Shown here: one piece after another, positions 54 through 20,685 of the stretch
How the letters are laid out: each line of letters starts with the position of its first letter
Position numbering within the stretch: the stretch's first letter is position 1
From: Xenococcaceae cyanobacterium MO_188.B32
Lineage (GTDB): Bacteria > Cyanobacteriota > Cyanobacteriia > Cyanobacteriales > Xenococcaceae
Assembly (NCBI GenBank): GCA_030065635.1
Contig: JASJDJ010000049.1
Coordinates: 1 to 44,168, forward strand
DNA: 44,168 nucleotides
Reading direction: 5' to 3'
Notes under the pieces: model-generated
What the model saw: only the letters and a program-made list of their open reading frames with translations
Databases searched by the model: none
Told to the model about the DNA's origin: nothing
Made by a program: the position numbers and the translations under genes

Positions 54-98
54 TACTTGAACCAACTTGATCACAAATATCTCACCTTGTACTCAGTT
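8..98. repeat. Three direct copies of GTAC(A/T)CAGTT next to the tnpB break point
   Basis: The 10-mer occurs at 8-17, 30-39 and 89-98, all in the same orientation; the third copy has T for A at one position. The third copy ends about ten bases from where the tnpB reading frame loses its family resemblance. Spaced direct repeats of this size are typical of transposase-binding sites at element ends, but only the edge of the structure is inside the window. Confidence 0.4.
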
Positions 99-836
99 GG
101 GAAAATGGACAGCTACTAGTTTAGCTATTTTTAATTGAGCTTTTTTCCAGTTATTAGAACCGATTATCTTGTTGCGGTTTAACCACTGTAATCTCGATAA
201 TCTTTTTTCATAAGACTTGTAAGCTTTTGCTCCTTCAAAAATAATCCCCGTACTCAGATAAGCTAAGGTTTTAACCCCTAAATCGACTCCTATTCTATCT
301 ACTGATTTGGGGGTATATAAGGGTTCGACTTCAATCTTATAACTGATGAACCAGCTCTCGGCTTTTCGGGAAATAGTAACGTTTTTTGGTTTATATCCCT
401 GTGGCAGTCTTTCATAAGTTCTTAGTATCCCAATTTTAGGAACTTGAATTTTAAAGTGGTCTACTACTTTAATCGTGCCATCAAGAGTAAAGCTATCATT
501 CCGTCCTTTTTTCTTGAATTTAGGAGCTTTGGATGTTTTTTTAAAGCATCTGTTCCATGCTTCTCTTAGTTGTCTTAAAGCAAACTGAGGAGCGCATTTA
601 GATGATTCGTAGTACCAAGGATTTTTTGGCTTAACTATTCCTACTAACCATTTATGCAAATCAATCCCAGAAGGGAATTTAATTTTATCTTCTGGATTTT
701 TTTGGTTATGGTCAAGTATTTGTTTAGTTAACCCCAGCCCCCAATTCCAGGCATGACGAGCAACTCCAGCGTGTTGAGCTAGTTGTGTTCGTTGCCTGTT
801 ATTTAATTTGAGTTCTGTTTTAAATCCTAGTATCAT
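93..836 (-). pseudogene. tnpB: Truncated TnpB (IS200/IS605 family), C-terminal half missing
   Basis: This is the N-terminal part of a TnpB RNA-guided nuclease, the accessory protein of IS200/IS605 and IS1341-type elements. The N-terminal helix-turn-helix/WED-type region is present. The first RuvC motif is visible as RIGVDLGVKTLA with the catalytic Asp at residue 185. The protein stops at 247 residues, against roughly 380-420 for the family. It therefore lacks the RuvC-II Glu, the zinc finger and the RuvC-III Asp, and should be nuclease-inactive. Family resemblance ends near KAQLKIAKL and the last residues (VAVHFPN) look like read-through into foreign DNA. The ATG at 836 is preferred over the upstream ATG at 866 because the extra ten residues are not family-like. 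The sequence shows no adjacent tnpA. Confidence 0.85.
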
Positions 837-880
837 GAAAACATTATACGTTATATTTCCGTACAATTAAACGGCTATAA

Positions 881-1463: not shown

Positions 1464-2849
1464 ATGGTTCGCATTTTAATTGCTGACGACGCTAATTTGA
1501 TTAGGCAAGCTTTAAATATTTACTTCAAGTCTGAATCAGATTTAGAGATAATTGGAACTGCTGAAAATGGAAAAATAGCCCTACAGCTAGTTGAAGAGTT
1601 AAATCCTGATATTGTCTTGATGGATATGGAAATGCCAGAAATGGACGGATTGACTGCCACCACAATCATTCGTCAGCTTTTTCCTAGAACCAAAGTATTA
1701 ATTATCAGTAGTCATAATAGTCAAGATTATATCGATAAAGCCTTAAACGCGGGAGCGAATGGCTATTTTATCAAAAATATGCCTGTAGAAGAGTTATCGG
1801 CAGCAATTAAATTGATACATAAACGAAATGTACGAATAATACCAACCTTTTCTGAGGATGAATCTTATATAGTATTGCAAGATTCTGAATCCCGTAGAAA
1901 CCAAACTGATTCAAGTTCAGAGCCAGTCTTTAATGCTAAAGAGGCAGAAAGCAACAGTCAAAAAATAGAACGAGAAAAAATTATCTCTGCGAATGCAGCC
2001 TTAAATGAGTCAACATCTTCCCGCACTAACAATTGGCAACTAGATCGGTATTGGTCAGAATTGTCATTTCTGTCATTGCTTCGTCTAAATAAAAGGTTCC
2101 TTTATATTAATTCAGCAATCGATAGAAAGGGAATTGTTTTTTTATTTATACTGGGTATGTTTGTAATGTTTGGTTTTGTTATTTTTTTAGCTAGCAAGAT
2201 CGAGTACAAAATCACAGTTAGAGCCAATGCTCAAATTTATTCTACTGGTGAAATAATTGAGGATTGGAAAAAAAAGCAAAAATCTGCCAATACGGAGACA
2301 GTTTCGCGATCGCAAATTATTACCCACACAACAGACCTCAAAGAAAAAAAAATAACTTCACAAGAGCTCAAACACGATCGACAACAATTGCAGTACCTTG
2401 ACAACAATTTACAAAATCCTCACGACCGACAATCATTAGTCCCTTCACAAGAGTTAATTACAAAGGTTTCTTCTAGTCGAGTTCCTCTTTTAATTAAAGC
2501 TTCTGTTCCTTCTCAAGATATTGCCAAGGTAGAAAAAGATCGAGAAGTTCAGTTAAAATTTTTTGCCTGTCCTTATGTTCATTATAGAACCCTTCAGGGC
2601 AAAACAATCGCGATCTATCCCAATGTCTCCCAATCTCTAAAACCAGAAGATACGCCTATCTCTAAGCAAAATGCTAATTCTGTTAGCGATACTTATGAAG
2701 TAACAATTGAACCTGCCAGTATTTCTCTCCATAAAGCTAAACACAAATGTCAATTGAAATCTGGTATGAAAGCTAAGGCAGATATTATTATTCAGGAAGA
2801 AACAATTCTAGCTTTAATTCTTCGCAAAGCTAGACTAATTCTACCTTAA
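1464..2849 (+). CDS. Response-regulator receiver fused to an HlyD-type membrane fusion protein
   Basis: Residues 1-120 are a CheY-like receiver of the NarL subtype: acidic pair D8/D9, phospho-acceptor D54 in VLMDMEMPEMDG, and conserved K104. There is no DNA-binding domain after it. A charged linker leads to one transmembrane segment at about 224-244, followed by EYKITVRANAQIYSTGEI, which resembles the start of the HlyD periplasmic part. The C-terminus (about 335-461) matches the barrel/tail of cyanobacterial HlyD adaptors for C39-peptidase-type ABC exporters, with VPLLIKASVPSQDIAKVE and a final ADIIIQEETILALILRKARL. The long alpha-helical hairpin of normal HlyD is reduced to about 60 polar residues. 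The inferred topology is receiver in the cytoplasm and barrel outside, so phosphorylation could gate or recruit an exporter. Its stop codon overlaps that of convergent ppk. Confidence 0.85.
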   Translation: MVRILIADDANLIRQALNIYFKSESDLEIIGTAENGKIALQLVEELNPDIVLMDMEMPEMDGLTATTIIRQLFPRTKVLIISSHNSQDYIDKALNAGANGYFIKNMPVEELSAAIKLIHKRNVRIIPTFSEDESYIVLQDSESRRNQTDSSSEPVFNAKEAESNSQKIEREKIISANAALNESTSSRTNNWQLDRYWSELSFLSLLRLNKRFLYINSAIDRKGIVFLFILGMFVMFGFVIFLASKIEYKITVRANAQIYSTGEIIEDWKKKQKSANTETVSRSQIITHTTDLKEKKITSQELKHDRQQLQYLDNNLQNPHDRQSLVPSQELITKVSSSRVPLLIKASVPSQDIAKVEKDREVQLKFFACPYVHYRTLQGKTIAIYPNVSQSLKPEDTPISKQNANSVSDTYEVTIEPASISLHKAKHKCQLKSGMKAKADIIIQEETILALILRKARLILP

Positions 2850-5008
2850 GCAATTCCCACTGATTGCATTGCCATTGTCATTAAAATAGAGTGAGCACTT
2901 TGTGCTTGACTATTTTCTTCAGGCTGTCTTTGAATATAGCTACCATCTGGTTGCAATTCCCAAGCCTGACGATTATCAGATAGCATAACACCTAAAATCT
3001 CTTGTAAATCTTTAGCAATTTCTGGATCGGCGATTGGCGTAACAGCTTCTACTCGTCTACTAAGATTACGTTTCATCCAATCTGCACTACCAATATATAG
3101 TTCCTCTTCACCATTGTTGTAAAAATAGAAAATGCGTGAATGTTCTAAAAAACGACCGATAATACTAATTACGCGGATATTATCGCTTACTCCTTTAATA
3201 CCAGGACGTAAACAACATATTCCCCTGACAATCAAATCGATTTGTACCCCTGCATTAGAAGCTTCATAGAGAGTAGCAATAACTTCTTGGTCTACTAATG
3301 AATTCATTTTGGCAATAATCCGTCCCGTACCCTTATGTTTGCAGTTGTCTATTTCTCTATGGATCATTGCAAGAGTGCGATCGCGTAAACTAACTGGAGC
3401 AACTAATAATTGACGATAAGATTTTTGCCGAGAATAACCAGTCAAGAAATTAAATAAATCGGTTAAATCTGCTCCTAAATCTTCTCGACAGCTTATAATT
3501 CCTAGATCGGTATAGAGTTTAGCAGTTTTAGGATTGTAATTTCCCGTACCGATATGAACATAACGGCGAATCTTGTTTTCTTCTTGCCGTACGACCAGAG
3601 ATATTTTGGTGTGAGTTTTCAATCCTACCAAACCATAAACAACATGAACTCCAGACTTTTCTAGTTTTCTTGCCCAATTAATATTATTTTCTTCATCAAA
3701 ACGGGCTTTTAACTCTACTAATACGGATACTTGCTTACCGTTTTCTGCTGCCGTAATTAAAGCTTTGAGAATTGGTGAGTCTCCCGAGGTACGGTAGAGA
3801 GTCATTTTGATTGCCAAAACGTGAGGATCGTAAGCAGCCTGAGTCAGAAAACGTTGTACTGTGCCACTAAAAGAATGATAAGGATGATGAACTAAGAGGT
3901 CTCCATCCCGAATAATGCTAAAAAAGTCGTCTCCGTCTTCCACCTCATTGGTGAGGTTAATATCTTGTAATCGATTCAGTCTGGGGGGAATTACGGGAGA
4001 CCAAGGACGGTCTTTTAATTCTGGCAAAGGCAATGCCATAAAAGACATCAAATCGCCTAAGCCTAGTAAGCCATCGATATCATAAATATCTTCTTCTGCT
4101 AAAGCTAACTCTCTTTTAATCATCGAGCGGACATCATCCGGAGTACCCGCTTGAATTTCTAGTCTTACCGCAGATCTGCCAATCCGACGTTTATACAATT
4201 CTTGTTCGATCGCCAAGAGTAAATCATCTGCTTCGTCTTCCTCTACTGCTAAATCTGCGTTACGAGTCACCCGAAAAGCATAACATTCCATGATATTCAT
4301 ACCAGGAAATAGATACTCCAAATTGTGAGCGATCGCTTGTTCTAAAGGTACGCCAGTCCAAACTGATACTTTTCCTTTTTGTCGCTGACGTAACTCTTCT
4401 GGAAAAGGAACAAAACGAGGTAAGACTTTAGGTACTTTTACTCGGGCAAATAGCTCTTCTTCTGTATCTGGGTCTTTGACTACTACGGCTAAATTAAGAC
4501 TGAGATTAGAAATATAGGGAAAAGGATGAGAAGGATCTACCGCTAGAGGAGTGAGAACGGGAAATATATGTTCTTCAAAAAATCTATCTATATAATTTTT
4601 TTGTTCTTGGTTGAGATCGACGTAATCGAGAAGATGAATACCATGATTGGTTAATTTCGCCTTTAAAACTCGTTCAAAATGTTGATGTTGTTTTTCGATT
4701 AAAGGAAGAAGACGATCGTTAATATCCTTTAGTTGTTGAGCTGGAGTACGACCATCAGCCGTTAAATTGGTTACTCCTGCTTCTAGCTGCTGCTTTAAGC
4801 CTGCTACTCGCACCATGAAAAACTCGTCTAAGTTGGCACTAAAGATTGCCATAAACTTAAGACGTTCTAATAAGGGGGTACGTTCGTCCAGTGCTTCGTG
4901 TAAAACTCTATAGTTAAACTCTAGCCAACTTAATTCACGATTAAAGTAATATTTAGGGTCATTGAGATCGATTTGCTTAGCACTAGCTTTAGTGTTAGTA
5001 GTAGTCAT
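2846..5008 (-). CDS. ppk: Polyphosphate kinase 1
   Basis: PPK1 reversibly transfers the gamma phosphate of ATP to growing polyphosphate through a phosphohistidine intermediate. The 720-residue length is normal. All four domains are evident: the N-terminal region with FNRELSWLEFNYRVL at 22-36, the head domain, and the two phospholipase-D-like catalytic domains. The autophosphorylated histidine is H466 in LKTHTKISLVV. The second active-site histidine is H485 in YVHIGTGNYNPKTA, with the same 19-residue spacing as in E. coli PPK. The nucleotide/phosphate-binding stretches HHPYHSF and IKMTLYRTSGDSPI are present. A purine-rich GGAGGG lies just upstream of the ATG. The neighbours are two membrane-linked receiver proteins and a pstB remnant, which suggests a phosphate-related locus. 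Confidence 0.97.
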   Translation of the reverse strand: MTTTNTKASAKQIDLNDPKYYFNRELSWLEFNYRVLHEALDERTPLLERLKFMAIFSANLDEFFMVRVAGLKQQLEAGVTNLTADGRTPAQQLKDINDRLLPLIEKQHQHFERVLKAKLTNHGIHLLDYVDLNQEQKNYIDRFFEEHIFPVLTPLAVDPSHPFPYISNLSLNLAVVVKDPDTEEELFARVKVPKVLPRFVPFPEELRQRQKGKVSVWTGVPLEQAIAHNLEYLFPGMNIMECYAFRVTRNADLAVEEDEADDLLLAIEQELYKRRIGRSAVRLEIQAGTPDDVRSMIKRELALAEEDIYDIDGLLGLGDLMSFMALPLPELKDRPWSPVIPPRLNRLQDINLTNEVEDGDDFFSIIRDGDLLVHHPYHSFSGTVQRFLTQAAYDPHVLAIKMTLYRTSGDSPILKALITAAENGKQVSVLVELKARFDEENNINWARKLEKSGVHVVYGLVGLKTHTKISLVVRQEENKIRRYVHIGTGNYNPKTAKLYTDLGIISCREDLGADLTDLFNFLTGYSRQKSYRQLLVAPVSLRDRTLAMIHREIDNCKHKGTGRIIAKMNSLVDQEVIATLYEASNAGVQIDLIVRGICCLRPGIKGVSDNIRVISIIGRFLEHSRIFYFYNNGEEELYIGSADWMKRNLSRRVEAVTPIADPEIAKDLQEILGVMLSDNRQAWELQPDGSYIQRQPEENSQAQSAHSILMTMAMQSVGIA

Positions 5009-5075: not shown

Positions 5076-5813
5076 TTAGAGATTAATTAAGAGCGAAAAA
5101 GTTGCTAAAGCTAAAAGAATTAAAAAACAAATTACTTGTAATTTAGAAACACGAGCCACATTTTTTTCTAACTTTTTTAAGCGATGAGATATCCCATCTA
5201 CTTCAAACTGAATATTAGGATCGGTATTAATTAAAAAACCCTTGTGTCTATCTAGGGTTTTCTCTACTTTTTTTATAGTTTCTCGCTCTATTTCTTGTTT
5301 CACTACAACAAATTGACTATTTATTTTTTCTAAGTTTTGTGATTGGATCTCTACTTCTTGTTTTAAACGTGAAACTTCATCAATATCCGATTCTAGTTTG
5401 AGAATTTTGTAAATATATTTTTCTACTAATTCTAGTCCTAGTTGAAAATATCCTTTATGGACTTGTCGGATGGCATTAATTAGTTCTTCAGCGGGAGCCG
5501 TTTTGAGTAAATATCCTTTAGCACCATTTTGTAAGGATTGATTTAGATGTCGATCGTTGTCATGAACTGTAAGTATTAAAACTTTGGTATTAACAAATCT
5601 ATCCGTTATTATTTTGGTAGCAGCTAAACCATCCATAACGGGCATTTCTATATCCATCAAAACTACATCGGGCTGTAGACTGGATATTTGGTCAATAGCT
5701 TCTTGCCCATTAACTGCAAATCCCACTATATTTATATTAGATTCTGTTTTAAGATGAGATTCTAGAATTGTATGGATAGTCTTTTGATCGTCAACAATAA
5801 GAACATCGATCAT
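5076..5813 (-). CDS. Receiver domain, coiled coil, C-terminal membrane anchor
   Basis: Residues 1-120 form a receiver with D8/D9, phospho-acceptor D54 (VVLMDIEMPVMDG) and K104, at the same positions as the receiver of the HlyD fusion on the other side of ppk. A NarL-type helix-turn-helix is absent. Residues about 135-190 are a heptad-rich coiled coil, and a single hydrophobic segment at about 226-245 (LQVICFLILLALATFSLLIN) ends the protein. This is a tail-anchored response regulator with no recognised output domain. It is probably a membrane scaffold or partner for another protein, possibly the receiver-HlyD protein. It lies 67 bp upstream of ppk on the same strand, so the two may be co-transcribed. 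Confidence 0.8.
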   Translation of the reverse strand: MIDVLIVDDQKTIHTILESHLKTESNINIVGFAVNGQEAIDQISSLQPDVVLMDIEMPVMDGLAATKIITDRFVNTKVLILTVHDNDRHLNQSLQNGAKGYLLKTAPAEELINAIRQVHKGYFQLGLELVEKYIYKILKLESDIDEVSRLKQEVEIQSQNLEKINSQFVVVKQEIERETIKKVEKTLDRHKGFLINTDPNIQFEVDGISHRLKKLEKNVARVSKLQVICFLILLALATFSLLINL

Positions 5814-13186: not shown

Positions 13187-13267
13187 TCGTTGTATTTAGT
13201 AAAGATCTAAATGATTTGTCCAAATAGCCTACTATCAATCGCGATTATCGAGGAAAAAGGAAAATTT

Positions 13268-13663
13268 ATGAGCACGGCTTTAGTTGTTGAAGATTGTCTT
13301 ACAGATAGGCAAACTCTGGTTTTATATTTAAAAAAATTGGGCTTTAATGTCCTGACAGCCGAAAGTGCAGCAGAAGCGAGAGCAAAACTTCAAGATAGCA
13401 AACCAGATATTATTCTTCTTGATGTAGTTTTACCAGATCGTAGTGGTTTTGAACTTTGTCGCGAGTTTAAATCAGACCCAGAAATGAATAAAATTCCGAT
13501 TATTTTTTGTTCTAGCAAAGGAACCGAGCTTGACAAATTTTGGGGGCTAAGACAAGGAGCTTCTGCTTATTTGGTTAAACCTCTAGTTCCAGAAGAACTG
13601 ATTGACATTCTAGAGCAGTTAACTAAGAGCAAAAATGAACAAAAGGAGATAGATGATGTCTGA
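13268..13663 (+). CDS. CheY-like response regulator (PixH/PilH type)
   Basis: A single receiver domain of 131 residues starting MSTALVVEDCLTDRQ. The acidic pair is E8/D9, the phospho-acceptor is in IILLDVVLPDRSGFE, and the conserved Lys is in AYLVKPL. The start at 13268 is chosen over the longer frame from 13211 because GGA purines sit just before it and the family begins here. Its end overlaps the start of the CheW gene by eight bases, showing translational coupling. It is probably the second, PilH-like regulator of the pathway. Confidence 0.93.
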   Translation: MSTALVVEDCLTDRQTLVLYLKKLGFNVLTAESAAEARAKLQDSKPDIILLDVVLPDRSGFELCREFKSDPEMNKIPIIFCSSKGTELDKFWGLRQGASAYLVKPLVPEELIDILEQLTKSKNEQKEIDDV

Positions 13664-14270
13664 ATTTTTACTGGCTACTCAAGAGCAAAATAATCCCAAA
13701 CTACTTTCTGGTGATTCAAATAAGTTAGCTACTACCTCGGCAGGAAAATTAGCCCCAAATTTTATTGGAGAGCAATTTTTGCGTTTATACCTAGATTCGG
13801 AAACAGGCGCTTTACTACCAATTACTCAATTAACCGAAGTATTAAACGTTTCTTGCTCTCAAGTAATGCCCATTCCTCATATGCATTCTTGGATGATGGG
13901 GGTATATAACTGGCGTGGTGAAATTCTCTGGTTAGTAGATTTAGCCAATTTAGTAGGTATTACGCCGTTATACCAACAGGCTTTAACTAGTTCGAGTCAT
14001 ACAGTAATTGTGCTAGAAGCTCCTTTAGAAGAAACAGATTCGACAGGCAATGACCGCAAAACCCTAGGTTTGGTAGTCAATCAAGTAGGTAATATCGAAA
14101 ATTGTAATCCCGACTTAATTAAAAATATTGCTTTTCCAGCGATTAACACCAAACTAGAAGCATTTTTGCGAGGCTATTGGTGTAAATCTGACTATGAAAT
14201 GTTAGCAATTTTTCATTTAGATTCTATTTGGGAAGCTATATCTCAAGCCGAAACTACTAGCAAGTTTTGA
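13656..14270 (+). CDS. cheW: CheW-like adaptor (PixI/PilI type)
   Basis: A 204-residue protein with one CheW domain (FLRLYLDSETGALLPITQLT and onward, with MMGVYNWRGEILWLVDL typical of CheW/PilI). It couples the MCP to the CheA kinase. The second of two adjacent ATGs (13656) is preferred because GGAG at 13645-13648 lies seven bases before it. It overlaps the CheY gene and is followed by the MCP gene after about 90 bp. Confidence 0.92.
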   Translation: MSEFLLATQEQNNPKLLSGDSNKLATTSAGKLAPNFIGEQFLRLYLDSETGALLPITQLTEVLNVSCSQVMPIPHMHSWMMGVYNWRGEILWLVDLANLVGITPLYQQALTSSSHTVIVLEAPLEETDSTGNDRKTLGLVVNQVGNIENCNPDLIKNIAFPAINTKLEAFLRGYWCKSDYEMLAIFHLDSIWEAISQAETTSKF

Positions 14271-14359
14271 GGGGTAATTACTAGTAAATACAATTTAAAT
14301 AGTTTTCATAGTTGTAAAACTTTGACTTAATATACTTTGTTCTCGTGAGGTTCATATTA

Positions 14360-17299
14360 ATGATTACGAATCTTCTTAATTCTAATTCAGATCCCCAAGA
14401 TACTAATAATAAAAATAATTCCAATAATTTAGATGATACTACTGCTCAAAATGAATCGAGTGAAACCTCTGTAGAGGAATCTGATTCTTTTTCTCTGTCG
14501 GATTCAGAAACAGACAAAAATTTTCCCAAAAATAACAATTCAGCTAACATTAAGCTAAATAAATTAGAATTGCCAGAGAAAGGGAAATACCTACGGAGAA
14601 ATATCTTAAATTGGTGGATACAGACAGGTTTACAGCGTAAAGCAACGATTATCGCTCTTGCTTTAGGTGTAATTCCTGTAGCTGCCGTTGGTGGTATTTC
14701 TTATAAAGTAGCAAGTAAGTCTTTAGCCGAACAAATTGTTACCGAACAAGAAACCCGCACCTTTGATATTCGCCAGAAAGTAACTCTTTTTTTAAATCAT
14801 ATTGTCGAAGATACCCAGACCATAGCCAAGTCTTCTATTCTGACAGATCCAGAGCTAAGAAAGACTACTAAGACACAACAAAAAATAGACTTACTAAACA
14901 GTTTTGTTGATTCTCATCCCGGGCGGTACGAAGGTATTGCCGTAATAGATACTAATGGGAATTTACTGTTTCAGTCTAAGTCATCTTATCCTCTAGACCC
15001 AGACAAAGATTATAGCGAACAAGAGCTATTTCAAAGAGCAATAAATAATAAAGATGCTGCTATCAATAATCCCAGAATATCTTCTTCATCAGGCAGACAG
15101 AATCTCGAAGTCGCTGTACCAATTAAAGCTAAGGGTACCGAAGAGATTATTGGTATTGTTACCATTCATATGCCTATCAGCAACTTAGAAAGAATTTTTC
15201 AGTATGTTAAAGCCCAAGGTTGGGAGTACAAACTGATCGATTCAGAAGGACGGATTTTTGAGGCAGATGAGATAGAACAAGTAGGTCATTTTGCTGGAGC
15301 CGATTTAGCCGATTTACCAGAGTTAATGGCTAGAGTTCAGAGTTTGGGGTCTAAAATCGACGAATATCAGTATTTTCAGCGAGGAAACCTGGGTCTAAGC
15401 GAAATCATGTTCGATCGCAACGATCGAACACAAGTTATTGTGGGTTATGCACCCATCACCAGTATTAGAGGTTTAGTTCAGCCAGGATGGGGACTCGCTA
15501 TTTCTCGCTCTTTAGAAGATGCTTTTATGCCCCTCAATAAGTTACGTTGGACGTTATTTTTAGGTACTACTGCTGCTGCCGTACTGGTAGGAGCGATCGC
15601 TGCCGTTTTAGCTAACCAAGCCACTCGTCCTATTACTGTAGCAGCAGAAGCAGTTAAAAGAATCGGTAAAGGAGACTTAGATACTCGCGTAGAGGTGGAA
15701 GGTAAAGATGAATTCGCACTCTTGGGCGATAATATCAACAAGATGGCAAAACAGTTAAAATTCCTGCTCCAGAATCAAGCGATAGAAGCCCAACGTTCTC
15801 AGCAATTAAAAGATATAACTCTTAAATTATCTAGAGCATTGGGTTATGAAGAAATTCTTCAGATTGCCGTTAGAGAAATTCTCTCAGCACTCAAAGTAGA
15901 CCGAGCCATATTTTATGACCTTAAAAATAATAATGATGAGAAAATTTTAGCTGAAGCAGTAGCTAATAATTGGCCTAGCTTAAAGAAAGCAGGTGTTACT
16001 CATCTCGACTTTATTCAAGAATATATTCAAAGCGATAAACTTGGTTATGTCTGGAAAATATCCGATATTTATCATGCTGGGTTTAAAACCAACCATCTCA
16101 GACAGTTAGATACTTTTAATGTCAAAGCTAGTTTAATTGCCCCTATTGCCTTTAGAGATGAATTTCAAAGCTTATTAATACTCCATCAGTGTGATGAAAC
16201 ACGAAAATGGAAACAAGTAGAAGTTGATTTCTTTACCCAGGTCGTCTCCCAGGTAGTGCTTGCTCTAGAGCGTGCTAATCTCCTCGAGCAGCAAAAAGCT
16301 GCCAAAGAAAGCTTACAAAAACGAGCTTTAGGGTTGTTGACAGAAGTAGAACCAATTAGTCAGGGAGATTTAACCGTTCGCGCTACCGTAACGGAAGATG
16401 AAATTGGAACTTTAGCCGATTCTTATAATTCCACAGTAGAAAGCTTACGGAAAATCGTTCTGCAAGTGCAAAAAGTGGTAACGCAAATGGCGGTAACTAC
16501 TAATAATAATGAGGCAGTAGCTCAAGAAATGTCCCAGAGAGCAGCAGAAAAATCAGAAGCAGTGGTTGCTGCTCTCGGTCAAATTCAAGCTATGGCTGAC
16601 TCAATTCAGGCTATTGCTCATAGTGCCGAAGAAGCAGAAAAAACCTTCCAAGAAACTGCCAAGACAGTAGCTTTGGGAGACTCCGCGATGAACCGAACCG
16701 TAGAAGGGATTATGGCGATTCGCTCTACTGTTGCCGAAACAGCCAAAAAAGTCAAACGGTTAGGAGAATCTTCGCAAAAGATTTCTAAAGTAGTTAATCT
16801 AATCAGTAGTTTTGCCTCTCAAACTAATCTATTGGCACTTAATGCTTCCTTAGAAGCTTCTCGTGCTGGCGAACAAGGTCATAATTTTGCCGTCGTTGCC
16901 GAAGAAGTAAGAGTTCTAGCTCAACAGTCAGCAGAAGCGACTAACGAAATCGAAAAATTAGTTGCCAGTATTCAGTTAGATACTAGAGAAGTAGTAGCAG
17001 CTATGGAAGAAGGTACAGAGCGAGTAGTCGTCGGTACTCAATTGGTAGATGAAACTCGTCAGAGTTTGAATCAGATTGCAGCCACAAGCGATCGCGTCAG
17101 CACTTTACTGGAAAACATTGCTCAGGCAACAGAAGCACAAACAGAAACTAGTCAGGCTGTTACAGACACTATGACTGAAGTAGCAGAAATGGCAACACAA
17201 ACTGCTACTGACGCAAATCAGGTATCAGACTCTACTAAAAAATTACAAGCTGTATCGGAAGAACTACAAAAAAGTGTTCGCCAATTCAAAGTTGAGTAA
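14360..17299 (+). CDS. Methyl-accepting chemotaxis protein with Cache, HAMP and GAF domains
   Basis: A 979-residue transducer from the ATG at 14360, which has GAGG nine bases upstream; a GTG at 14345 would add five residues. Numbers below count from the GTG. Residues 1-95 are a low-complexity Asn/Ser/Asp tail. TM1 is about 100-122, then a dCache-like sensor. TM2 is about 402-424, and HAMP 1 is 425-477. A GAF domain lies at about 485-645, and HAMP 2 at 650-705. The signalling domain has its hairpin tip near 819-845 ([20 protein letters not shown]). The GAF domain resembles cyanobacteriochrome GAFs (DIYHAGF, then LLILHQC), but the Cys-His that holds the bilin is Asn-His (N583-H584). It is therefore PilJ/HmpD-like rather than a PixJ photoreceptor. 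Confidence 0.92.
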
Positions 17300-17303
17300 T
17301 TAG

Positions 17304-17358
17304 GTAATAAGTAATAAGTAATAAGTAATGAGTAATAAATATATATGCTACTCATTAC
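17304..17358. repeat. GTAATAA heptamer tandem repeat (STRR-like) and inverted repeat
   Basis: Five consecutive heptamers (GTAATAA x3, GTAATGA, GTAATAA) occupy 17304-17338. GTAATGAGTA at 17325-17334 is the exact reverse complement of TACTCATTAC at 17349-17358, so a hairpin can form. This is a short tandemly repeated repetitive sequence of the kind common in cyanobacterial spacers. It separates the MCP and CheA genes inside the operon. Confidence 0.75.
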
Positions 17359-17406
17359 CGACATAACTCCCCATTCCGAACTCCGAACTCATATAAAGTT
17401 AAGACG

Positions 17407-20400
17407 ATGATCGACCCAGATATTCGCGACCAGGCATACCAATTTTTTATAGAAGAAGCTCCAGAGCTACTACTAATTATAGAAACAAATTTATTAAGTC
17501 TTAGACAAGAACGTAATCCTTCCAAAATACACGATTTAATGCGCGCTGCTCACTCGATTAAAGGGGGGGCAGCGACAGTAGGATTAGATGTTATTAAAAC
17601 TATAGCCCATCGTTTAGAAGATATTTTTAAAGCCCTCTATAGTGAGACAGTAGAATTAGACTCTGAGCTAGAAAGCTTGCTGCTCCAAGGTTATGACTGT
17701 TTACAAGAGCCTCTTAGTAAACAGATCGCAGAAGACAAGTTAGACGAAGAATGGGCTTTGGCTAATGCCGAACCTGTTTTAGCGCGTATAGAAGCGAAAT
17801 TAGGAACTGCTTTAGATGAAGCAGACAGCTATATGCCTAGCTCCACTGATTTAGGAGTGGATATGGTTTTGTCTATCTTTGAAATCGACGTATCCCAAGG
17901 TATAGATCGTATGGCTATGGTCTTAGCTAGTCCACAAGCTTATGACATAGCTATCGAACTGAGAACACAAGCAGAAGTATTTTCTGGTTTTGCCGATATT
18001 TTAGGCTTGCCAGGATTTGGAGAGATTGCACAAACTACCGTAGCTGCTCTCGATGCTTGTCCAGATAGAGCAGAGCAAATTATGCGCCTGGCTTTAGCAG
18101 ATTTCCAACAAGCTAGAGATCTAGTCTTAGCAGGCGATCGCACCCAAGGAGGTAATCCCTCGCTCGAGTTATTGGCTTTGACTAACGCGAGCACCGAACA
18201 ACCTACAGATATCCTCGATCGAGAATCAGAACAGGTTTTTGACTCAGAAAGCCCAGAAAACTATCTTCAAGAATCAGAGCCGGTTTTTGACTCAGAAAGT
18301 CCAGAAAACTATATTTTGGATATGTCTTCTCTGGATTTCTCTCAAGATAATGTAGCAGAAGAGCTGACGACAGATACTCCTTCTTTAGAAGAGCTTCTAC
18401 TTGGTGTAGAAGCAATTTCGGAACCAGATACGACCGATACTGCCACCAATGAAGAACCTTTTGTTGTAGATGCGACAGAAGCTTTATCTTTAGAGTCGTT
18501 AGTAACCAATGCCTCCACAGACTCAGATATCTTAGACACTTCTTGGCAAGAAATACCAACCCAGCCCAACCAAGAAATTATCTCCGCAGAAATAGTCGGG
18601 CAAGAAAATGATTTAGTCCCCTTCTCTCTAGATTTTTCTGCTACTTCCATCCCAGAGCAATCATCACCACCCAAACCCAAACAAAAAGCTAAAAAAGACA
18701 GTTCTCGCAATTCTAAAAAAACTAATTCTAATCGCAATTTAAAAGTGCGAGTTGACTTAGAGCGTCTAGAGCGAATGAACAACTACGTTGGAGAACTAGT
18801 TATCGATCGCAATAGTATATCTTTGCAACAAGAACAGCTACAAACTACTTTACGTAAACTCCGACAGCGACTAGAACAATTCCAATATTTAACGGGTGAG
18901 TTCCAGGATATGTCGGATAAGATGATCCTCAACCCGATTAATACTCCTCTTCCTCCTGCAAATAATGATTCATCCTCCTTAAATCAACTAGCTACTTATG
19001 ATACTTCTGCCCAATTTGACTCCTTAGAAATGGATCAATATGGACAAATGCACTCTTTATTACAGGGTGTAGTAGAAGAAATGATGCAGTTAGAAGAAGC
19101 TGTAGAAGACGTTTTTCTCTATGCCAGACAGTCTAATAAAACAATTAAACATCAACAGCAAACTCTAGGTAAATTGCGCGATGAATTGATGTGGGCGCGT
19201 ATGTTACCCTTGGGAGAAGTTCTTAACCGTTTTCCCCGTGGCATCAGAGATTTATCTCTTAAATATGACAAACCTGTTAACCTTCACTTAAAAGGAACAG
19301 AAGTACTAATTGATAAGGGAATTTTAGAAAAACTCTACGATCCTCTACTACATCTGTTACGTAATGCTTTCGATCATGGAATCGAATCTCCAGAAATAAG
19401 AAGGTCTCAGGGCAAACCAGAAGAAGGAAACATTGAAATTCATGCTTATCACCGAGGCAATCAAACTATTATTGAAGTAAGCGATGATGGTAAGGGTTTA
19501 GATATCAATAAGATTGCTCAACGAGTAATTGAAAGAGGCTTGTTAGCTCCTGATAAACTAACCGTAACTACCAAAGATGAATTATTAAACTTTATCTTTG
19601 AACCTGGATTTTCTACTGCTGAGAAAGTTAGCGAACTTTCTGGAAGAGGTGTTGGTTTAGATGTCGTTCTTTCTCAATTACAAGAAGTTAAAGGAACTGT
19701 TAAAGTAGATTCTACTCCAGGGCAAGGAACAACTTTTATCTTATCTCTACCTTTAACTCTAACTATCTCTAAGTTACTTGTTTGTGCTGTGGGAGCTACA
19801 GCAGTTGCCTTACCTTCAGAAAGTATTGTCGAAATTGTCTTTCCTCAAGGTAATCAGATCAAGCAAATGGGCAAACAAAGATACCTGTCTTGGCGAGAAG
19901 ATATGGTGCCAGTATACCGAATAGCTGATTTATTAGAGTATGGTTATCCTATCTCCGAGGAGTTAAAATGCAAAGATTTTGTCAATTCATCCACCTCAGA
20001 AAATTCGGCTTTACCAATGTTGATTTTAGAAGGAGAAAAGCAAAGTTTTGCTTTAGAGATTGAGAATTTTGGCAAAGAGCAAGAAATGGTTATTAAACCC
20101 TTTAATCGGACGATCGCACCTCCTCCATATACTTATGGTTGTACTATTTTAGGGGATGGTAGTTTAGTCCCCGTAATTGATGGTGCTTCTTTACTAACCT
20201 ATGTAAGAGAGCAAAACAAAATATCAACAAATAAAACAGGAACTGGTCATCAGCACAATTCGTTTAAAGCTAGTGTTGAGACTATTCAGGCTCCCATGGT
20301 TCTAGTCGTAGATGATTCGGCAATGATGCGGAGAACTTTAGCTATTACCCTTAGAAAAGTTGGCTATCGAGTTATACAAGCCCGAGATGGTTTAGAAGCA

Positions 20401-20685
20401 ATAGAACTACTACAACAAAATTCTCAGGTAGAGTTAATTGTAAGTGATTTGGAAATGCCTAACCTTAACGGGTTTGAGTTTCTCAATCAACTAAGACAAA
20501 ATCCCGACCTTTCTATGATTCCCGTAGTAATGCTTACTTCCCGCAGTAACGATAAACATCGTCAGTTAGCAACCCATTTAGGGGCTGCTGCTTACATGAC
20601 TAAGCCCTATATCGAGCAAGAGTTTCTCGCCGTACTTAAAGAAATTACTTCTCAAAGTACGACTCCTAAGTTATCTACTGTATAA
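17407..20685 (+). CDS. cheA: CheA hybrid kinase with C-terminal receiver (PixL/PilL/TaxAY type)
   Basis: A 1092-residue histidine kinase. The Hpt domain at 1-110 carries phospho-acceptor H49 in MRAAHSIKGGAATVG. A second helical Hpt-like region follows at about 150-270 without an equivalent His. The linker (about 265-455) is acidic and contains a 16-residue tandem duplication. The dimerisation helix starts at LKVRVDLERLERMNNYVGEL. The ATPase has LRNAFDHGIESPE, DDGKGLD and GRGVGLDVV. A CheW-like domain and a receiver (VLVVDDSAMMRRT, VSDLEMPNLNGFE, MTKPY) complete it. It is the last gene of the chemosensory operon, and a terminator follows. It would phosphorylate the two response regulators encoded upstream. 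Confidence 0.95.
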   Translation: MIDPDIRDQAYQFFIEEAPELLLIIETNLLSLRQERNPSKIHDLMRAAHSIKGGAATVGLDVIKTIAHRLEDIFKALYSETVELDSELESLLLQGYDCLQEPLSKQIAEDKLDEEWALANAEPVLARIEAKLGTALDEADSYMPSSTDLGVDMVLSIFEIDVSQGIDRMAMVLASPQAYDIAIELRTQAEVFSGFADILGLPGFGEIAQTTVAALDACPDRAEQIMRLALADFQQARDLVLAGDRTQGGNPSLELLALTNASTEQPTDILDRESEQVFDSESPENYLQESEPVFDSESPENYILDMSSLDFSQDNVAEELTTDTPSLEELLLGVEAISEPDTTDTATNEEPFVVDATEALSLESLVTNASTDSDILDTSWQEIPTQPNQEIISAEIVGQENDLVPFSLDFSATSIPEQSSPPKPKQKAKKDSSRNSKKTNSNRNLKVRVDLERLERMNNYVGELVIDRNSISLQQEQLQTTLRKLRQRLEQFQYLTGEFQDMSDKMILNPINTPLPPANNDSSSLNQLATYDTSAQFDSLEMDQYGQMHSLLQGVVEEMMQLEEAVEDVFLYARQSNKTIKHQQQTLGKLRDELMWARMLPLGEVLNRFPRGIRDLSLKYDKPVNLHLKGTEVLIDKGILEKLYDPLLHLLRNAFDHGIESPEIRRSQGKPEEGNIEIHAYHRGNQTIIEVSDDGKGLDINKIAQRVIERGLLAPDKLTVTTKDELLNFIFEPGFSTAEKVSELSGRGVGLDVVLSQLQEVKGTVKVDSTPGQGTTFILSLPLTLTISKLLVCAVGATAVALPSESIVEIVFPQGNQIKQMGKQRYLSWREDMVPVYRIADLLEYGYPISEELKCKDFVNSSTSENSALPMLILEGEKQSFALEIENFGKEQEMVIKPFNRTIAPPPYTYGCTILGDGSLVPVIDGASLLTYVREQNKISTNKTGTGHQHNSFKASVETIQAPMVLVVDDSAMMRRTLAITLRKVGYRVIQARDGLEAIELLQQNSQVELIVSDLEMPNLNGFEFLNQLRQNPDLSMIPVVMLTSRSNDKHRQLATHLGAAAYMTKPYIEQEFLAVLKEITSQSTTPKLSTV
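18223..18318 (+). repeat. Tandem 48-bp duplication in the CheA linker
   Basis: Two adjacent 48-bp units (18223-18270 and 18271-18318) encode ESEQVFDSESPENYLQ and ESEPVFDSESPENYIL. They differ at only a few bases, so the duplication looks recent. It lies in the acidic, probably disordered linker and keeps the reading frame. Confidence 0.9.

Follow-up and report, generated by a model that had tools for sequence, protein, structure and literature searches.

The window analysed here is the whole of contig C269 (44,168 nucleotides) of the host genome G000 (281 contigs; completeness 97.18%, contamination 1.47%). At 1464-2849 of its plus strand lies a single open frame, running from ATG to stop without internal stops, that encodes a protein of 461 amino acids in which a receiver, a linker, a membrane helix, an eroded lipoyl/hairpin stretch, a β-barrel and a C-tail follow one another. 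The receiver domain takes up residues 1-125 (1464-1838) and is supported by Pfam family PF00072, active-site residues, PDB fold and omega. It is followed by a low-complexity cytoplasmic linker that is predicted to be disordered (residues 126-222, 1839-2129; pLDDT and omega) and by a single membrane helix (residues 223-245, 2130-2198; Kyte-Doolittle hydropathy and modelled helix). Residues 246-324 (2199-2435) hold the first barrel strand and then a stretch in which alignment with relatives shows the two lipoyl halves to be missing, along with most of the hairpin. The MFP/HlyD β-barrel and C-tail make up residues 325-461 (2436-2846), as judged from identity to sister copies, modelling, PDB matches and omega. 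Convergent to this gene, and sharing its last 4 bases, is a polyphosphate kinase gene, ppk (2846-5008, minus strand; PP_kinase domains). Beyond it, a frame at 5076-5813 (minus strand) encodes a protein of the same receiver group that consists of a receiver, a coiled coil and a membrane helix, without a barrel (PF00072 only). On the other side, an IS605 OrfB-type transposase frame (93-866, minus strand) lies upstream of the fusion gene near the contig end.

We analysed the two halves of the protein separately. The receiver matches PF00072 over residues 4-116 with an E value of 1.6e-28 (99.5 bits against a curated cut-off of 30.2), and its pocket is complete, with D8, D9, the phospho-acceptor D54 (codon 1623-1625), S82 and K104 (codon 1773-1775). 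D8, D9, D54 and K104 are invariant across seven aligned receiver-HlyD proteins, position 82 being S or T. The original prediction of an intact phospho-acceptor receiver, made from D54 and K104, is thus borne out. NCBIfam gave receiver-containing families only among the 25 matches listed, none of them above cut-off. The closest PDB folds were VraR (Z 22.7), LiaR (21.9) and DesR (21.3), over 128-132 residues; these share the receiver fold and active site with the window protein, but their output is a DNA-binding domain, whereas here a membrane helix and a periplasmic barrel follow. The predicted transmembrane helix was recovered as well: the sole hydrophobic segment begins near residue 224 (Kyte-Doolittle 3.02), and the full-length model places a helix at 220-245. 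That model, built from a seven-row alignment, had a mean pLDDT of 60.4, with a confident receiver, a fair barrel and pLDDT below 50 at residues 141-228, consistent with a disordered linker.

A fold search with the whole-protein model returned receivers only among the matches listed, and the barrel was therefore modelled and searched alone (residues 229-461, 60-row alignment). Mean pLDDT rose to 76.5, with the barrel blocks at 83-96 and values below 50 at residues 52-68, 90-97, 101-107 and 174-177 of the piece. Forty-four PDB chains reached Z 8 with this model (top Z 12.6 over 98 residues), and the titles of all 24 listed entries with Z of at least 8 name MFPs or MFP complexes, including MacA, EmrA, BesA, ZneB, AcrA, MexA, CusB and HlyD. 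Foldseek likewise placed MFPs first, with TM-scores of at most 0.35, which are low because the barrel is the only shared part. The profile of the 60-row alignment, built mostly from intact relatives, also found MFP chains first (8dck, E 8e-35; 7sgr, 5e-22). In addition, residues from about 290 to 459 are 60% and 56% identical to two longer receiver-HlyD proteins of a sister species (G217, Xenococcaceae cyanobacterium MO_188.B29, same genus). The HlyD barrel and C-tail proposed to follow the membrane helix are thus present, and structure prediction, which could have spoken against them, yielded a barrel of the MFP type. Domain searching gave a mixed answer: the receiver exceeded its Pfam threshold, but the HlyD matches did not (HlyD_3, 19.1 bits against 22.2, E 0.0023; HlyD_D23, 13.3 against 30), although the longer receiver-HlyD relatives do exceed the HlyD_3 cut-off. 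Like HlyD (7sgr), MacA (4dk1 and 9qgy) and EmrA (8zal), with Z of 12.6, 12.4, 12.4 and 8.3 over 98-130 residues, the window protein has an inner-membrane anchor followed by a barrel; those proteins differ from it in carrying lipoyl and hairpin domains and lacking a receiver.

An assembly or frame artefact, two genes joined by error, can be rejected as the origin of this architecture, because the identical domain order recurs in many separate assemblies. In the loci examined, 48 distinct frames combine a receiver with an MFP part; some are cut by contig ends (e.g. L183 and L182). We classed 10 of the 48 as type A, 30 as type B and 8 as type C. The homologues with the same fusion that the original prediction called for therefore exist, and the fusion is real and recurrent. 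MFP matches were weak in L183, L214, L231, L238 and L253, the last four being confirmed by Pfam. A hydrophobic segment above 1.6 (Kyte-Doolittle) follows the receiver in 44 of the 48 frames, and intact relatives keep one order of receiver, linker, membrane helix, lipoyl, hairpin and barrel. The DDD[S/T]K active site is present in all 10 rows of type A, 31 of 32 of type B and all nine of type C, counts that include some repeats of one gene; the odd type-B row begins inside the domain. Pfam confirmed three extra fusions on other MFP subtypes, in Hydrococcus rivularis NIES-593 (L230), a Chamaesiphon (L242) and a Synechococcales MAG (L243). Two candidates chosen by length, L240 and L248, were dismissed, as Pfam matched the receiver alone. 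The long HlyD frames L059, L062, L064, L065, L070 and L072 were also rejected as fusions, their N-terminal domains being other or of no known kind. Two of these adaptors have a large N-terminal part (L064, 821-3634, minus strand; L065, 1736-4516, plus strand), with a Pfam NB-ARC match in L064 and a similar sequence in L065; the beginning of this N-terminal part is common to the HlyDs of L059, L062, L070 and L072. Cytoplasmic additions to HlyD are, therefore, not limited to receivers.

The host's family is represented by 27 genomes. Type A, to which the window gene belongs, was found in at least seven of them (G000, G217, G162, G149, G263, G135 and G198), and type B in all 27 (25 full length, two cut near a contig end). 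A type-B match at 1e-60 was obtained in 77 of the 292 phylum genomes. In the two that belong to the host's family the match begins at residue 1-3; in every listed row from elsewhere its first residue is 166 or higher, and the fuller of these rows lie in frames of about 500-632 amino acids. Because the outside matches begin so late, the type-B receiver was added, or kept, in the host's family. Across a sample of 291 genomes of the order, at E of at most 1e-95, the type-A rows with both parts or with frames above 600 amino acids all came from the host's family. Fusions nevertheless have a wider spread, as Calothrix (L241) and the Hydrococcus, Chamaesiphon and Synechococcales records show.

Quick trees of both halves cluster the window gene with intact receiver-HlyD proteins of type A. 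The receiver tree was built from 126 of 132 rows, repeats and receivers below 105 residues having been dropped; it has few columns, and 53 of its 123 branches are open. Here L010 (the same gene as L050), L049 and L068 are the companions of the window row (SH-aLRT 96), type B forms a separate set (97) and type C two sets. In the MFP tree the window row, which fills 37% of the columns, groups with L010 and L049 (SH-aLRT 99). A single origin of the type-A fusion was rejected. The receiver label needs five changes on the type-A MFP tree, and one receiver-bearing clade was rejected with a p-AU of 2.3e-5 in a tree without L238 and with 64 of the 86 receiver-less rows (4.6e-13 with the long row L238 included; both trees quick, the group named before the trees). 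Fusion or loss has, therefore, occurred more than once.

We then compared the genes next to the fusions, where three kinds of pump were seen. The C39 kind comprises 12 receiver-HlyD genes (the 10 of type A plus L231 and L253), half of which start 11-97 bp past the stop of a same-strand C39-peptidase ABC gene, taking the first in-frame ATG as the start: 20 bp in G263, 26 in G135, 11 in Calothrix MO_167.B12, 64 in Hyella patelloides, 62 in Hyellaceae CSU_1_1 and 97 in Hydrococcus Prado102. The pairing of a C39-peptidase ABC gene with HlyD was found at L225, L308, L241, L231, L238 and L253. Hyella patelloides, Hyellaceae CSU_1_1 and Hydrococcus Prado102 have a long C39 transporter with a cyclic-nucleotide domain; downstream, Hyella and Hydrococcus carry a PpiC-type rotamase, and Hydrococcus also a Nif11-domain frame. 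In two more of the 12 the C39-ABC gene is about 2 kb away (Waterburya, G149, about 1.8 kb on the same strand; G162, about 2.3 kb on the other strand). The G162 transporter is cut by the contig end, and a 91-amino-acid frame adjoining it, which had no Pfam match, resembles the double-glycine leader consensus quoted in PMC3140520. The stretches read around the remaining four (the window, L049, L050 and L090) contain no C39-ABC gene. Among the eight type-C (DevB-like) genes, five are followed by a DevC-like FtsX permease (G000, G272, G019, G227 C152 and G249), four of these loci having an ABC ATPase downstream too. The type-C gene of G120 (L315, 3087-8162, minus strand) lies directly upstream of an AcrB-type RND pump, the third kind; after those of G227 C273 and G244 there is neither a DevC-like permease nor an RND pump. 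Beside the type-B gene no pump was seen in G000, G103, G207 and G217, as judged by eye except for a methyltransferase.

The exporter neighbours that the original prediction proposed to look for are often found beside the relatives but not in the window: its 61 frames of at least 60 amino acids include no C39-ABC, DevC-like or RND match, and hence no bacteriocin export cluster of C39-ABC with HlyD of the kind known from cyanobacteria (PMC3140520). The contig begins 1463 bp upstream of the gene, so that on this side the search covers that short stretch; the one ABC ATPase in the window is 34 kb from the gene. The intact type-A copies of the sister species likewise have no pump gene in the stretches read.

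Alignment with receiver-HlyD relatives revealed what the window copy has lost. Lipoyl halves 1 and 2 are gone, together with most of the hairpin; the first barrel strand, the remaining barrel and the C-tail are retained, and two short, low-confidence helices in the model are what is left of the hairpin. The hairpin had been described as nearly lost, and most of it is indeed gone, but the loss is larger, taking both lipoyl (barrel-sandwich) half-motifs as well. The two longer copies of the sister species differ in this respect: L049 (638 amino acids) is complete, and L050 (552 amino acids) has the lipoyl halves and a shorter hairpin. The neighbour of L050 was not found in the host genome, which makes L050 a candidate rather than an established positional orthologue of the window gene; the sister contig ends just past ppk. 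A further receiver-HlyD copy on host contig C231 (L051, 201-1359, minus strand; receiver 61% identical) looks broken: its receiver frame ends shortly past residue 122, and what follows lies in another frame and matches only weakly (E 4e-4 and 0.018). Because the lipoyl halves and most of the hairpin are absent and the window has no pump gene, the window protein, judged by the known build of MFPs, should not itself form a channel-docking adaptor or reach an outer-membrane channel. The proposal of a phosphorylatable cytoplasmic domain on an export adaptor is supported for the intact relatives, with their conserved active site and frequent pump neighbours, but not for the window protein as a member of an export complex on its own. 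As a natural deletion, the window copy shows which parts selection retains once the conduit is lost.

Selection on the window copy was estimated as omega (Nei-Gojobori) against the sister copy L050, with 95% intervals in brackets. Omega was 0.13 (0.06-0.24) for the receiver, 0.62 (0.28-1.10) for the linker, 0.55 (0.24-1.02, thus reaching 1) for residues 246-324 and 0.37 (0.21-0.63) for the barrel; for the receiver and for the barrel none of 1000 bootstraps gave a value of 1 or more. The dS between the copies (0.60-0.97) is similar to that of orthologues of the two species (0.64-0.71; ppk 0.64, type B 0.65-0.71, receiver-membrane protein 0.68). With L049 as the outgroup, the window copy has 8 changes of its own in the receiver (L050 has 9), 6 in the linker and helix (L050, 16), 20 in the eroded stretch (L050, 9) and 15 in the barrel (L050, 13). 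The eroded stretch has, therefore, evolved fast, and the receiver and barrel have not. Both are still constrained in the window copy. The barrel omega exceeds that between L050 and L049 (0.215) and that of the type-B MFP (0.109); L050 may itself be relaxed. In neutral runs the frame stayed open in 3, 0 and 0 of 1000 at 0.1, 0.2 and 0.35 random draws per site, where draws may repeat a base, so that true divergence is below these values.

These numbers bear on a serious rival, which we nevertheless consider unlikely: that the window gene is dispensable and slowly decaying, its adaptor part dead and its open frame an unbroken remnant. Such decay would account for the missing lipoyl halves and hairpin in a window without a pump gene, for the transposase frame and contig end just upstream, for the broken C231 copy in the same genome and for the raised omega of the barrel and the eroded stretch; the constraint could predate a recent loss of function. 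It sits poorly with the low omega of the receiver and barrel at an orthologue-like dS, and with a frame that has stayed open, through net in-frame deletions, over a time in which neutral runs lose theirs. It is also rather unlikely, in our judgement, that the protein is just a membrane-anchored receiver, its periplasmic rest being an anchor or small sensor. Like the many proteins of receiver and membrane helix in these genomes, it would then serve as a phosphate sink or as a dock for another cytoplasmic protein, unconnected with export. The receiver is indeed the most constrained part, and barrel-less proteins of receiver, coiled coil and membrane helix lie close in the receiver tree, one of them encoded next door at 5076-5813. 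The barrel, however, is constrained beyond an anchor's needs, with about as many changes as in the lipoyl-bearing sister copy (15 and 13).

We find it most plausible, at a little short of an even chance, that the window copy is a reduced but still selected regulatory derivative, a shortened member of a group of receiver-MFP proteins. For the intact relatives we favour receiver-controlled export, although type B, the best conserved of the fusions, has no recognised pump next to it within the stretches covered. MFPs form hexameric rings, and HlyD has its N-terminus on the cytoplasmic side near the transporter. A NarL/CheY-like receiver fused through a linker and membrane helix to an exporter MFP would be present in the cytoplasm in six or so copies, beside the pump ATPase or porter. 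A histidine kinase would phosphorylate the conserved Asp and so alter how the receivers pair; this may in turn promote or prevent the assembly or the opening of the export complex, making the control post-translational. The window copy has kept the receiver, anchor and barrel but lost the conduit-building lipoyl and hairpin parts. It would then most likely be a membrane-anchored regulatory piece, whose barrel may join a ring of intact MFPs and make it responsive or non-productive; alternatively, it may merely present its receiver at the membrane.

An improbable variant, which overlaps with the other readings, is that the receivers on MFPs work independently of phosphorylation and serve assembly or localisation instead. 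Among the listed neighbours of the fusions we recognised no kinase gene (a neighbour listing rather than a kinase scan), and in the same family some HlyDs have a large cytoplasmic N-terminal part of another kind, such as NB-ARC. Yet the acidic pocket, phospho-acceptor, S/T and Lys are all kept in the rows examined, and cyanobacterial kinases are often unlinked to the genes of their regulators. Most known response regulators act as transcription factors, enzymes or protein-binding switches. Returning to receiver-controlled export, we offer tentatively, and with some doubt, a broader proposal from the comparison of these loci: the host's family and some other cyanobacteria may repeatedly have made three kinds of exporter (C39-peptidase type 1, DevBCA-like ABC and an RND pump) direct outputs of two-component systems by attaching a receiver to the adaptor; a kinase would then gate export without transcription, and stripped copies such as that in the window would be separable regulatory subunits that enter or poison rings. 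Should a receiver in this position gate a pump, export of peptides, glycolipids or toxic compounds could be switched within seconds, with exporters as direct two-component outputs.

In the type-C relatives the receiver is on a DevB-like MFP, and downstream come a DevC-like FtsX permease and, in many cases, an ABC ATPase; these relatives resemble the DevBCA-type exporters of cyanobacteria. The window gene differs from them in being of type A, and DevB is not known to carry a receiver. The original prediction knew of no such regulatory route from the literature, and our searches of one open-licence library are consistent with this, as they found no description of a receiver-HlyD fusion. Wang et al. 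2011 (PMC3140520), in the available part, describe the HlyD of cyanobacterial bacteriocin clusters as having one domain, and their main text nowhere uses the words regulator, receiver or two-component; the available parts of PMC8277102 and PMC4971617 likewise hold no description of the fusion. The type-A relatives share the adaptor of the clusters of Wang et al. and adjoin C39-peptidase ABC genes, the Hyella and Hydrococcus loci resembling the groups of that paper with a CAP_ED transporter, HlyD and SurA. The difference is the receiver fused in front and, for the window copy, the missing lipoyl halves, most of the hairpin and the cluster.

Elsewhere in the window, positions 13211-20685 of the plus strand carry chemotaxis-like genes: a receiver frame, an MCP with Cache, HAMP and GAF domains, a CheA-type kinase with Hpt, CheW and a receiver. 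In the sister species (locus L217), a frame related to that at 5076-5813 lies between ppk and a phosphate-type ABC operon of four genes, for a binding protein, a pair of permeases and an ATPase, which suggests that 5076-5813 encodes a membrane-anchored receiver linked to phosphate metabolism.
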